DNA from: a virus
Virus record (IMG/VR): IMGVR_UViG_3300043571_000124
Coordinates: 1-31,416 of that record
DNA length: 31,416 nt
Direction: 5' to 3' (one strand)
Shown here piece after piece: positions 7,291 to 14,429 of the stretch (positions within the stretch are counted from its first letter, which is position 1; each line of letters starts with the position of its first letter). The notes beneath the pieces were generated by a model. It had not been told where the DNA came from, made no database searches, and saw nothing but the letters and a program-made list of their open reading frames with translations. A program made the position numbers and the translations under genes.

Positions 7291-8139
7291 TTATTTTTTT
7301 ATAAATGAAAATATATGTTCTATTATTGGTAAAGTCCAACCATCGCCTAATAATGAACCTGCTTTTTTAGTTGAAAGTATGTCGCAATAATTATCAGGAA
7401 ATCCTTGAAGTCTGCACATTTCAATTTTATTTACAGTTCTTACTAATTCATTTTCTTTTATTAAAGTAATCATACCCGTAGTTTCATTTCTATGTATTAA
7501 ATATCTTTGAGTATTTGATTGACATTGGTTTGTTTTTAATGAAACGTGTTTTAAAGAACTTACTTCACCACTTGTAATTATATCTTTTAAAAGTATTCCT
7601 CTGTCTTTTGGTTGTGGTATATCAGTAATAATATCACAAAACATACCATCTTGTTTTGTTCTTATATTACTCCAATAGTATCTATCCCTTAATTGAGCAG
7701 TAACTAAACTGCTATTTATTTGTACTGGATAAACTCCTATTGATCGGCTAATTATACCTACATCCAATTTAGAAGCACTACCTACGTTTTCTTGCAGAAA
7801 TAATACATTAGGATTTAAAGATTTTATATGTTCTAATATTTCAACAAACGTAAAAAACAAACTTGATTTACTTCCATTTATTCCTGCACGTTTTCCAGCA
7901 GCAGATAAATCTTGACATGGAGAACCACTTAAAACTAAATCAATACTTTTCCAATCAATATTCCATTCACGCCACTTGGTAACATCTCCTACTTGGATAG
8001 TGTCAGGGAAATGATGTTGTGTTAATTCAATCGCATAAGGTTTTATTTCGCTTGAATAGTATTTATTTACTTTTATACCTACATTTTCAAGAGCTTGGCG
8101 ACCTGTGTTCATTCCGTTAAATAGTGATAGTACATTCAT
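7291..8139 (-). CDS. DNA (cytosine-5) methyltransferase, 282 aa
   Basis: It transfers a methyl group from S-adenosylmethionine to cytosine C5 in phage DNA. Motif I is LFNGMNTGRQAL at 6-17 and the motif II acid is Glu31. The catalytic PCQ loop (SGSPCQDLS, Cys75) is at 71-79, ENV at 117-119, QLRDRYYW at 149-156 and RLQGFPD at 243-249. A motif X variant GDGWTLPII starts at 265. The opening and the GDGW in place of GNSV resemble the DNMT3-like group of phage enzymes. The target-recognition region (about 165-235) is short, which suggests a short target. No restriction partner is nearby, so it probably protects the phage genome from host restriction. Confidence 0.92.
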   Translation of the reverse strand: MNVLSLFNGMNTGRQALENVGIKVNKYYSSEIKPYAIELTQHHFPDTIQVGDVTKWREWNIDWKSIDLVLSGSPCQDLSAAGKRAGINGSKSSLFFTFVEILEHIKSLNPNVLFLQENVGSASKLDVGIISRSIGVYPVQINSSLVTAQLRDRYYWSNIRTKQDGMFCDIITDIPQPKDRGILLKDIITSGEVSSLKHVSLKTNQCQSNTQRYLIHRNETTGMITLIKENELVRTVNKIEMCRLQGFPDNYCDILSTKKAGSLLGDGWTLPIIEHIFSFIKK

Positions 8140-12022: not shown

Positions 12023-12817
12023 TTATAATTTTATACCGCACATTTCTAAACAATTTTCACACTTGCCTAAAAAAGCTTTTTTGTTAAACTTACTTACTAA
12101 TGCTTTTGATTTCATAAATGCCATTTTTTTTACTTTAATAATTTCATTAACTACAAATTCGTTTTTACTTGATGGTCTAAATACAGTATCAATAATATTT
12201 TCATTTTTTAATAATTCATTTTGAATTAAAGACATTTTATATCCAATTTTATTATCAGTATTAAAATCAGCAGTAATAACTCTTAAAACTGATTTACAAT
12301 AAGGTTTTAAACGATTATATTCTTTTAATGAATTATCTATTAACTTTTTATTATCTAAAGCAGAAATAGAAGTATTAATACAAATATTATATTTTGATAT
12401 TTCTTTTAGTTGTAAATCTGTTAATGATTTCCAATGTCTTGTAATAATTACAATTTGTTTTTTTGAACTAATATCAAATAATGATAATTGACTATTTTCT
12501 TTTATTTGTTTTATAATATTTATTGTATGTTCCCAATTTTCAGATGGGTCACCAGTACAACCTATTCTTATAAAATCCATATCGATTTTTTCAATTTGTC
12601 TTACTATTTGTAATCTATGTGATTCATTTAAAAAATGTCTTTCAATTGATTTGCTAAAATCTATACCATATCTTTTAGCTGTTTTTAAAGCATAGCAATC
12701 ATTATAACAACCTTTTGGATTTTCTAAAAAACCACTTTCACAACCTTTTATAGTATCTAAATCCCAAATGCCCCTCTCATTTTTAGAGAGGGATATTATA
12801 TTTTTATAAGTTTTCAT
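12023..12817 (-). CDS. Radical-SAM-like cysteine protein of the DNA-modification block, 264 aa
   Basis: A probable TIM-barrel protein with strands DFIRIGCTGDPS (81-92), QIVIITRHW (121-129), ICINTSISALD (145-155), SVLRVITADFN (176-186) and IIDTVFRP (208-215). Cys26, Cys37 and Cys41 lie in an N-terminal GCESG...GCYNDCYA segment, like phage radical-SAM relatives (Gp37/Gp68 type) with CxxxCYA. The canonical CX3CX2C third cysteine is absent: residue 44 is Leu. A second cluster, CENCLEMC (253-260), ends the protein. The start overlaps the GNAT-methyltransferase stop (TAATG), implying joint work. I infer radical or iron-sulphur chemistry on a base or on a modification precursor; the substrate is unknown. 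Confidence 0.55.
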   Translation of the reverse strand: MKTYKNIISLSKNERGIWDLDTIKGCESGFLENPKGCYNDCYALKTAKRYGIDFSKSIERHFLNESHRLQIVRQIEKIDMDFIRIGCTGDPSENWEHTINIIKQIKENSQLSLFDISSKKQIVIITRHWKSLTDLQLKEISKYNICINTSISALDNKKLIDNSLKEYNRLKPYCKSVLRVITADFNTDNKIGYKMSLIQNELLKNENIIDTVFRPSSKNEFVVNEIIKVKKMAFMKSKALVSKFNKKAFLGKCENCLEMCGIKL

Positions 12818-14208
12818 TACAAACGCCCTACATTTGGATAAAGGTCTTTTATTTTTGAAGTATCACCTTTATAAAAAACATAAATACGTTGTTCGCATTT
12901 TGGATATTTACGACTATTTAATGTTTTCTTTGCGGTTGCACGTCTTGTAAATTCAGATTCTAAATAAATTATTTTATTATAAATATGCAAACCTTGTTCT
13001 TTGAAAAATAATTCATGTTCAGCATCGCTACCATAATAACCACCATCTTTATTTCTACTATCTCCTGTCATAACTACAAAAAAAGTATTATCATTCATTA
13101 CTGAAATAGCATTTTTATAACCCTCAAAAAGCATATCTCTAAATTGTTCATATGTGGATAATGAATTTAGTTCCCCTTTTGGTGCTTTTCCATCATAGTC
13201 TAAATATGTTTCAACTTTATAATATGGAGGACAAGAAAAAACTAAATCATATTTTTGTTTAGGTGTGAATTTTGAAGTATCAGATTTTAACCACTTTACA
13301 TTTGGAAAATCTTGACATAAAGCATTATTTGCATCACATTGATTTTGTCTAATTTCAGAAGATAAATATTCATAACCACAACCACCAGCAACAAACCCCA
13401 TTTGTACACCACCCCCAAAAGGATTATAAACTCTAACTCCATTTTTAGGCATAAACATACGCACAATAATTTCACACGCAGTAGGATCTAAAACAGATGC
13501 ATTTCCGTTTAAATCTTTTGTTTTATCTGTTAATATTTCACCATCAACTACTTTCTGTTTTGATAATACAACATTTGACATACCAGCTTTACCTTGCCAA
13601 CAACCCTCACGACTTGCAAATTTAGGATTTGGAATATTGTATTTTTTTCCAGCATCTTCTAACATTTCATTCCACGCTCTTTTTACCTTTAACCACTCAC
13701 CACTTGTAGAATTCCATAAATTAGTCATAGCCATATGACAAAGTCTTTTAACTCTTACTTGTTCTTCTTTTCCATAATAAATATAAGTAAAATCATTTTT
13801 AGCTAAATTAACTTTAAAACCAAGTGCTAAAAAAACTTTTGGATTTTCTAACTTATGTTTATTTGAAACTGTCATAACCATATGATAACCATATGTATTT
13901 TGGTCAATAATTTTTTGTACCATCATTGAATAAATTTCTTTATCTTCTTTGCCTGGATACATTGCTGACTGCAAAAGACAAAACTCACCAACTATATGAT
14001 TAACTTCATATGTAAAAAAACCACTAAACTCATCATCTATTTTTAATATAATAGCTGAATGTTTTTGCATATTTGCTCTTGCTGCTCTATAAGCAATTTT
14101 ATCAATTAAAGCTAATTCAGCTACTTTAGATTCATAACCTGAACCAATAACGCTATCAACTTGTATTAATTCAATTTTAGGTTCGAACATTTTTATTTGT
14201 TTTTTCAT
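12817..14208 (-). CDS. GNAT-like domain fused to CPPY-type DNA methyltransferase, 463 aa
   Basis: Two domains. Residues about 25-147 follow GNAT acyltransferase topology: strands AIILKIDDEFSGFFTYEV and EFCLLQSAMYPG, helix EIYSMMVQKIID, strand MVMTVSN, then PKVFLALGFK. The usual Q/RxxGxG loop is degenerate (YPGKEDKE). Residues about 235-447 are a Rossmann DNA methyltransferase with motif I VYNPFGGGVQMGFVAGG (260-276) before motif IV FSCPPYYKVETY (324-335), so Cys replaces the usual D/N/S of the PPY motif. Later VMTGDSRNKDGGYY (379-392) fits phage DNA methylases of the FSCPPY type. Phage Mu Mom is also GNAT-related and hypermodifies adenine, so a combined methylation/acyl-type modification is possible. 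Whether the GNAT part is active is uncertain. Confidence 0.75.
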   Translation of the reverse strand: MKKQIKMFEPKIELIQVDSVIGSGYESKVAELALIDKIAYRAARANMQKHSAIILKIDDEFSGFFTYEVNHIVGEFCLLQSAMYPGKEDKEIYSMMVQKIIDQNTYGYHMVMTVSNKHKLENPKVFLALGFKVNLAKNDFTYIYYGKEEQVRVKRLCHMAMTNLWNSTSGEWLKVKRAWNEMLEDAGKKYNIPNPKFASREGCWQGKAGMSNVVLSKQKVVDGEILTDKTKDLNGNASVLDPTACEIIVRMFMPKNGVRVYNPFGGGVQMGFVAGGCGYEYLSSEIRQNQCDANNALCQDFPNVKWLKSDTSKFTPKQKYDLVFSCPPYYKVETYLDYDGKAPKGELNSLSTYEQFRDMLFEGYKNAISVMNDNTFFVVMTGDSRNKDGGYYGSDAEHELFFKEQGLHIYNKIIYLESEFTRRATAKKTLNSRKYPKCEQRIYVFYKGDTSKIKDLYPNVGRL

Positions 14209-14211
14209 AAT

Positions 14212-14358
14212 TTAAAGTTTATTTATTTTTTCAATTTCTAATTTTTTCCAAGTTCCATTTTTTAATCTACTGTCTAAAGTAGGTCTGCTGATTCCTAATT
14301 TTTCAGCGAGTTCTTTTTTTTCGTACTTCAAAAGAAGTAATCTAATTTTTTCGTTCAT
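14212..14358 (-). CDS. Small HTH DNA-binding protein, 48 aa
   Basis: MNEKIRLLLLKYEKKELAEK opens a 48-residue protein that is almost only a helix-turn-helix (KELAEKLGISRPTLDSRL, residues 15-32). It sits 3 bases before the GNAT-methyltransferase gene and 64 bases after the TATATTTG box. It probably binds DNA near its own promoter and adjusts expression of the modification genes. Too short to assign to a named family. Confidence 0.7.
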   Translation of the reverse strand: MNEKIRLLLLKYEKKELAEKLGISRPTLDSRLKNGTWKKLEIEKINKL

Positions 14359-14421
14359 GTGTAAAATTTTTTACGTTATTAAGGTTAAAAATAGCGGACA
14401 CTATATCCGCTTTGTTGAGTA

Positions 14422-14429
14422 CAAATATA
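14422..14429 (-). promoter_or_regulatory. Promoter -7 box TATATTTG, DNA-modification operon
   Basis: TATATTTG on the minus strand, immediately after the stop of the 52-aa gene (14435) and followed by a 64-base leader to the small HTH gene. It makes the modification block an independently controlled unit. Confidence 0.55.

Follow-up and report, generated by a model that had tools for sequence, protein, structure and literature searches.

Gene layout

The window analysed here is the whole of a 31.4-kb phage record from IMG/VR (IMGVR_UViG_3300043571_000124, positions 1 to 31,416), in which terminase, portal and NinG genes are present. We examined two adjoining genes of this window; one encodes a protein that joins a GNAT-fold domain to an amino-methyltransferase, and the other encodes a divergent radical S-adenosylmethionine (SAM)-like protein, here called rSAM-A (rSAM, radical SAM). 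In related phages the rSAM, GNAT-fold and methyltransferase parts are obligately associated and are frequently fused. An earlier note on this DNA had described three open reading frames (ORFs), a TAATG overlap and an FSCPPYY motif, all of which were present, on the minus strand. The two long genes lie as follows:

12817..14208, minus strand: GNAT-fold/amino-methyltransferase fusion protein of 463 amino acids (aa), from the ORF list, family searches and a structure model
12023..12817, minus strand: rSAM-A, divergent radical-SAM-like protein of 264 aa, from cysteine conservation and profile comparison
12815..12819, minus strand: TAATG stop/start overlap of the fusion gene and the rSAM-A gene, sharing one base, from the sequence

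In most relatives the overlap between the two genes was likewise short, at 1 or 4 bases. When compared with five close relatives, the fusion protein had a ratio of nonsynonymous to synonymous substitution rates (dN/dS) of about 0.01-0.10, and the 264-aa rSAM-A a ratio of 0.11-0.22; both long genes are thus under purifying selection, indicating that the ORFs are not chance.

The 463-aa protein joins a GNAT fold to a phage methyltransferase domain

Domains and motifs of the fusion protein were placed as follows:

13771..14175, minus strand: GNAT-fold domain, about residues 12-146, from the structure model, fold search and alignment
12844..13503, minus strand: Rossmann methyltransferase domain, about residues 236-455, from PHROG 12517 and 498 and from ParB-methyltransferase relatives
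13408..13425, minus strand: methyltransferase motif I NPFGGG, residues 262-267, kept in 166 of 168 distinct relatives
13219..13239, minus strand: methyltransferase motif IV FSCPPYY, residues 324-330, from CPPY conservation in relatives

An AlphaFold model of the N-terminal domain (predicted local distance difference test, pLDDT, 80.5) was used in a fold search, which returned 278 PDB matches at E <= 1e-3; the best 50 of the 278 were all acetyltransferases with a probability of 1.00, in agreement with the GNAT-like domain claimed before. Alignment of relatives revealed strongly conserved stretches in this domain (GSGYE, YRAARxNMQxHS, FxGFFT, NH, EFCLLQSAM and MTVSxKHxLExPxVF). EFCLLQSAM forms strand 75-83 and MTVSxKHxLExPxVF starts from strand 109-115, so that EFCLLQSAM and MTVSxKHxLExP lie on the pair of strands from which the catalytic cleft of GNAT enzymes is built.

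Kinship with Mom of phage Mu, also put forward in the earlier note, did not hold. Mom, which makes N6-carbamoylmethyl-adenine, resembles the N-terminal domain in its GNAT superfamily fold and its part in phage DNA modification, but it has no detectable sequence relation to it and needs no rSAM or methylase partner. Membership of the Mom family was rejected after comparison of the single sequence with Mu Mom and comparison with a profile of 8 Mom-like proteins, neither of which gave a relation, and the ELNRMW and SFAD motifs of Mom were not found in the GNAT domain.

The methylase half matched PHROG 12517 (E 1.6e-39) and PHROG 498, annotated 'DNA methyltransferase' (E 2e-38), and so bore out the DNA methyltransferase domain proposed earlier; its Pfam match to N6_N4_Mtase was weak (3e-4, below the curated cut-off). 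The cysteine of motif IV stands at the position of N, D or S in canonical amino-methyltransferases, and 164 of 170 distinct relatives of the GNAT type retained the CPPY core, as did 91 of 95 of the ParB type. Both the FAG/FGG motif I and the CPPY motif IV of the phage ParB-methyltransferase family (PHROG 498/12517) were present in the 463-aa protein, while no ParB domain was found at its N-terminus, where the GNAT-fold domain stands instead. By these matches and motifs, the methyltransferase domain is assigned to the C-terminal half of the phage ParB-methyltransferase family. Known members such as gp66 of Croceibacter phage P2559S and gp1 of Mycobacterium phage Vincenzo have the same methyltransferase domain, about 30% identical and with CPPY, but begin with ParB and have a SAM decarboxylase homolog (SpeD) or a pyridoxal phosphate (PLP) enzyme as partner, whereas the window protein has GNAT and rSAM-A.

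The 264-aa protein is treated as a divergent radical SAM protein

Two cysteine clusters were located in rSAM-A:

12695..12742, minus strand: first cysteine cluster C26-x10-C37-x3-C41-Y, predicted [4Fe-4S]/SAM site, from conservation
12038..12061, minus strand: second cysteine cluster C253-x2-C256-x3-C260-G, from conservation in relatives

Both three-cysteine clusters were invariant in 40 relatives. Across 117 rSAM-A sequences, C26, C37 and C41 were kept in 99-100% and C253, C256 and C260 in 98-99%; the first spacing was 10 or 11 in 107 of the 117, giving Cx10-11Cx3C, unlike CxxxCxxC.

At some GNAT-methyltransferase loci the position of rSAM-A is occupied by rSAM-B, a bona fide Radical_SAM protein (PF04055, E 2.6e-11). 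Profile-profile comparison of rSAM-A with rSAM-B (117 versus 66 sequences) gave a probability of 91% and an E of 1e-6 over 204 columns; an earlier comparison with small alignments had been weak (16%), and the 91% came only with deeper alignments. Control comparisons against the GNAT profile gave 0-0.3%. The structure model of rSAM-A showed alternating strands and helices (pLDDT 93), with no PDB match at E <= 1e-3. The profile comparison and its controls support treating the 264-aa protein as a divergent radical SAM protein, consistent with the radical-SAM-like protein with two cysteine clusters that had been described from the letters. While rSAM-B belongs with the SPL/COG1533-type and DUF5131-type radical SAM proteins, rSAM-A would be a remote relative of these, differing in its Cx10Cx3C motif and its additional C-terminal CxxCxxxC cluster.

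The 264-aa protein was not recognised by Pfam, NCBIfam or PHROGs, and a search of 50,697 phage records with annotation found no relatives of it. Sequence searches of the PDB, made with both profiles, that of rSAM-A among them, gave no matches. Membership of rSAM-A in DUF5131 was considered and rejected; it had a single weak Pfam match (1 of 40 members, E 7.7e-4), and profile comparison with a DUF5131 protein gave nothing.

The three parts occur together

Relatives of the fusion protein numbered 90 confirmed in IMG/VR, and 242 with a profile search. Among the best-scoring 80, a list biased to near relatives, rSAM-A lay immediately downstream in 70, upstream in 2 and fused in 3; of the other five, three had rSAM-B instead and two were cut by the contig end. 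Conversely, the best 80 rSAM-A loci all contained the fusion protein, whole or as the part held by the contig. When loci were collected from distant rSAM-A members, 72 of 80 had the GNAT-methyltransferase, 49 of these as a single ORF in the order rSAM, GNAT, methyltransferase and mostly of 730-860 aa. Eight of the 80 were without it; L367 (loci are cited by L numbers) is cut by the contig end, L316 is the far end of a contig shared with L314, which carries the fused gene, and six are truly different contexts.

A non-redundant set was then defined by GNAT domains of less than 85% identity (n = 96 proteins). In this set rSAM-A was adjacent in 47 (34 downstream, 13 upstream) and fused in 34, and rSAM-B was adjacent in 13. 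The remaining two, L071 and L220, were without rSAM and both lie at contig ends, so that no testable case lacked an rSAM (94 of 94). The coupling of the two genes had been claimed before; on checking whether homologs stand apart in most phages, we found them together, whether adjacent, fused or with another rSAM as replacement, and the coupling was not refuted.

In 92% of locus pairs the two loci had not one flanking protein in common, indicating that the module moves as a whole from one phage backbone to another. Cellular genomes gave 7 matches among 84,980 species, four of them fused, and the module is therefore near-confined to phages. Unrelated cargo genes do gather in phage early regions, as is generally known, and the pair could on that ground be mobile cargo that shares an operon by accident and does nothing jointly; this explanation is effectively refuted by the fusions, both gene orders and rSAM replacement seen across the 94 testable non-redundant cases, on largely unrelated backbones. 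Since the three parts are always together and often form one protein, they probably act as one machine.

A proposed three-part enzyme

We propose that the two genes encode one three-part phage enzyme that attaches a group bigger than methyl to bases in the DNA of the phage itself, as a defence against host nucleases and by an Elp3-like logic; we give this proposal as a whole about an even chance. A base change that goes beyond methylation alone is the likeliest reading, and DNA is the likely target.

In Elp3, whose product on tRNA is 5-carboxymethyluridine, the rSAM domain precedes a GNAT (KAT) domain, and the linker of the bacterial and archaeal forms holds a three-cysteine zinc site (PMC6367351). 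Acetate released from acetyl-coenzyme A (CoA) by its GNAT domain is converted by its rSAM domain into a radical, and this adds to C5 of uridine (PMC13315578). Fused phage homologs have the same order of rSAM, three-cysteine linker and GNAT, the second cysteine cluster of rSAM-A lying in the linker as CxxCxxxC in 34 of 34 non-redundant fusions; the likeness is one of architecture only, and the window holds these parts as two genes in reverse order. It is from this order and linker that we propose an Elp3-like logic, with the methylase-fold domain bringing the DNA. The cysteine spacing of the Elp3 rSAM domain is non-canonical, as in rSAM-A. Elp3 acts on a nucleobase, and the phage module presumably does likewise, with DNA as its presumed target. 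The module differs from Elp3 in that it has an extra methyltransferase domain, is without the acetyl-CoA loop, is phage-borne and often consists of two genes, and its proteins match neither TIGR01211 nor PF04055.

In the proposed enzyme, the methyltransferase-fold domain would bind DNA and the target base, together with SAM or a SAM-derived donor, and what the GNAT-fold domain would bind or activate is a small acyl group or some other substrate directed at amines. A 5'-deoxyadenosyl radical, made by the rSAM domain, would convert this group, or one that the base already bears, to a carbon radical, and the carbon radical would complete the adduct. We infer for the module a DNA target, chemistry beyond methylation, Elp3-like acyl delivery and an anti-nuclease role. 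In a narrower version, the enzyme would be a DNA counterpart of Elp3 proper; a carbon radical from an acyl donor (e.g. acetate) would be added to a DNA base to give a carboxymethyl- or acylmethyl-type product, with the methylase positioning the base or capping the product. We regard this version as possible but doubtful. If true, it would constitute a radical route to carboxymethyl-like DNA bases, independent of carboxy-SAM.

Several observations weigh against the three-part DNA-modifying enzyme. The acetyl-CoA pyrophosphate loop (R/QxxGxG/A after strand 4) is absent from the N-terminal domain, where the alignment reads YPGKEDKEIY or similar; for this reason the domain is named GNAT-fold rather than acetyl-CoA acetyltransferase, and acyltransfer by it, whatever the donor, is putative. 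Foldseek comparison of the rSAM-A model with the PDB gave nothing at E <= 1e-3, the best rSAM-like match being lipoyl synthase (E 0.06), and rSAM-A had no match to PF04055 or to TIGR01211 (Elp3). The methyltransferase may only methylate. The bias of the best-scoring locus lists was softened, and not removed, by the 85% identity filter. Finally, DNA, RNA and protein targets are not directly distinguished, and Elp3 acts on tRNA.

This last point leads to a different target. The best mechanistic analogue, Elp3, modifies tRNA (PMC6367351), and many phage GNATs act on proteins (PMC7824862); the module might by analogy modify RNA (e.g. tRNA, against anticodon nucleases, as an Elp3-like tRNA enzyme) or a host or phage protein. 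We consider this very unlikely, given that the methylase domain falls in DNA methylase families, that relatives carry ParB DNA-binding domains and that rSAM-A elsewhere adjoins DNA-modification genes. Without the GNAT-methyltransferase, rSAM-A was found near TAGT (TET-associated glycosyltransferase) in L373 (E 7e-42), L379 (3e-16) and L383 (3e-15). At L376:4995-6844 it adjoins a PAPS-reductase-like gene and two ParB-like genes, possibly a separate DNA-modification cluster, and at L377:4998-8227 rSAM-A, ParB and a second, canonical Radical_SAM gene stand in a row, as they do by profile matches in L378. Because these are genes typical of DNA-modification loci, the company of rSAM-A supports DNA as the target of the proposed enzyme.

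Contrast with ParB-type methylases

For comparison we used 80 loci of methylase relatives that have ParB in place of GNAT; the seeds were SpeD-linked, and the set is therefore biased towards SpeD. These ParB-type loci had rSAM-A in 0 of 80 and rSAM-B in 2 of 80. Because the ParB-type relatives are without rSAM-A, the rSAM goes with the GNAT domain and not with the methylase.

The same comparison bears on an explanation in which the fusion protein carries out plain N6-methyladenine or N4-methylcytosine methylation, its GNAT fold serves only as a DNA-binding or target-recognition domain, and the work of the rSAM is loosely connected, for example DNA repair of the SPL kind. The GNAT domain takes the place of ParB, at the same position, and ParB may serve DNA binding or target recognition in the relatives; the acetyl-CoA loop is degenerate; and rSAM-B is related to DNA photolyase-type rSAMs and often occurs without any methylase. 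However, the conserved GNAT residues cluster on the strands of the catalytic cleft, 34 of the 96 proteins are fusions with rSAM-A and no testable case shows it separated, and ParB-type methylases manage without any rSAM. Plain methylation is on balance rather unlikely.

The main rival to the proposed radical enzyme, and in our judgement an unlikely one, is a stepwise decoration in which the methylase would put a methyl group, or a SAM-derived aminocarboxypropyl or aminopropyl group, on an exocyclic amine, the GNAT would acylate it and the rSAM would remodel the side chain. In 58 of the 80 loci of the ParB type, to which the closest relatives of the methylase domain belong, SpeD lay within 300 bases of the methylase, and some other methylase relatives adjoin, or are joined with, fold-type-II PLP enzymes; for SpeD and PLP enzymes alike, SAM or an amino-acid side chain could be the substrate. 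An amine, moreover, is the natural substrate of a GNAT, and for one other phage methylase there is proof of carboxymethyl-SAM transfer to cytosine in DNA (PMC12783734). Yet no SpeD or PLP gene was seen with GNAT-type systems, and some phage SpeD homologs decarboxylate ornithine or arginine, not SAM (PMC10407285). The CPPY motif IV is identical in the GNAT and ParB types, so that donor use cannot be read from it.

A proven case of a larger-than-methyl phage adduct made through a methylase fold is 5-carboxymethylcytosine, formed by CmoX with carboxy-SAM (PMC12783734). This pathway of Synechococcus phage S-B43 (CmoA/CmoX/CmoY; 5-carboxymethylcytosine and a glycine adduct) resembles the proposed enzyme in reaching a larger base adduct by way of a methyltransferase-fold enzyme, and differs in its use of carboxy-SAM and a C5-type methylase, with no rSAM and no GNAT. 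Comparison of the loci shows one phage methylase domain paired variously with SpeD, with PLP enzymes, or with GNAT and rSAM together, and this suggests modular base-decorating pathways.

Thymidine hypermodification in phages M6 and ViI involves rSAM, PLP and acyltransferase steps on phage DNA bases; those pathways differ in starting from 5-hydroxymethyl-deoxyuridine and in having no amino-methylase fusion. To our knowledge, radical SAM chemistry on intact DNA bases is scarcely described beyond photoproduct repair and a small number of pathways for thymidine hypermodification. Iyer et al. reportedly predicted, in 2013, phage modifications made from SAM derivatives. Literature searches for a GNAT-methylase-rSAM system found no description in the papers available, and the architecture may have been predicted earlier. 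A widespread phage enzyme of rSAM, GNAT-fold and methylase parts would imply a DNA base not yet described and a new strategy against restriction, and possibly an Elp3-like reaction on DNA; the natural single-chain versions, of about 740-860 aa (e.g. L077, 739 aa), make the enzyme directly testable in a laboratory strain.

Other settings of the methylase and radical SAM families

ParB-methyltransferases with a small SpeD homolog were found at L387-L466 (IMG/VR), L082 and L083; the pairing suggests a non-methyl DNA modification that is SAM-derived or polyamine-derived. In Pseudanabaena phage Pam4 (L094:1024-3513) and Erythrobacter phage ZS04 (L093:1093-3531), a PALP domain is flanked by two stretches that match the methyltransferase profile, so that a PLP-dependent enzyme is apparently inserted inside the methylase domain; the Pam4 protein also has an N-terminal ParB-like domain before the interrupted methylase. 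A contig of Riemerella columbipharyngis (L226:5683-7323) encodes the methylase domain with another, unassigned N-terminal region, FemAB/GNAT-like by eye, and lacks an rSAM; this may be another, independent fusion of the GNAT type. The same contig, which has phage-like genes, encodes an 889-aa protein (L226:1481-4147) that reads as a Cas9-like nuclease; it matches HNH_4 (E 8.7e-11), and inspection by eye suggests an arginine-rich helix and a RuvC-like start.

The SPL-like rSAM-B family (L229-L306) is frequent in phages, where it often stands by itself or next to ParB genes, and in L262 it lies within an apparent 7-deazaguanine synthesis gene cluster. The rSAM-A frame of L073 has a TAG inside the first cysteine motif (L073:5158-5274, GGC*GLCYA) where relatives have tyrosine, and a sequencing error, decay or recoding are the alternatives.

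Local genes and regulatory sites

The earlier note had counted a helix-turn-helix (HTH) gene of 48 aa as part of the system and a C5 methyltransferase (7291-8139) as a general second layer. Neither proved general; the HTH gene was present in 1 of 80 relatives (L001), and a C5 methyltransferase gene stood close to the module at just 1 of 80 loci and in none of the 10 longer relatives. Both are not module-defining and may matter to this phage. Upstream of the fusion gene the following were noted:

14212..14358, minus strand: 48-aa HTH-like ORF, directly upstream of the fusion gene, a local feature, from weak HTH matches
14393..14411, minus strand: exact inverted repeat AGCGGA-N7-TCCGCT, upstream of the 48-aa HTH ORF, from a repeat scan
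14422..14429, minus strand: TATATTTG, candidate -7 box, TAnnTTTG-like, from the sequence

The HTH call for the 48-aa ORF was weak (best E 1.7e-4, below Pfam cut-offs). TATATTTG fits TAnnTTTG, which we take to be the Bacteroidota -7 box. The inverted repeat, for which the chance expectation is 0.13 sites when up to 2 mismatches are allowed (<=2), sits between this TAnnTTTG-like box and the 48-aa HTH ORF, and is a possible candidate operator for the HTH protein.

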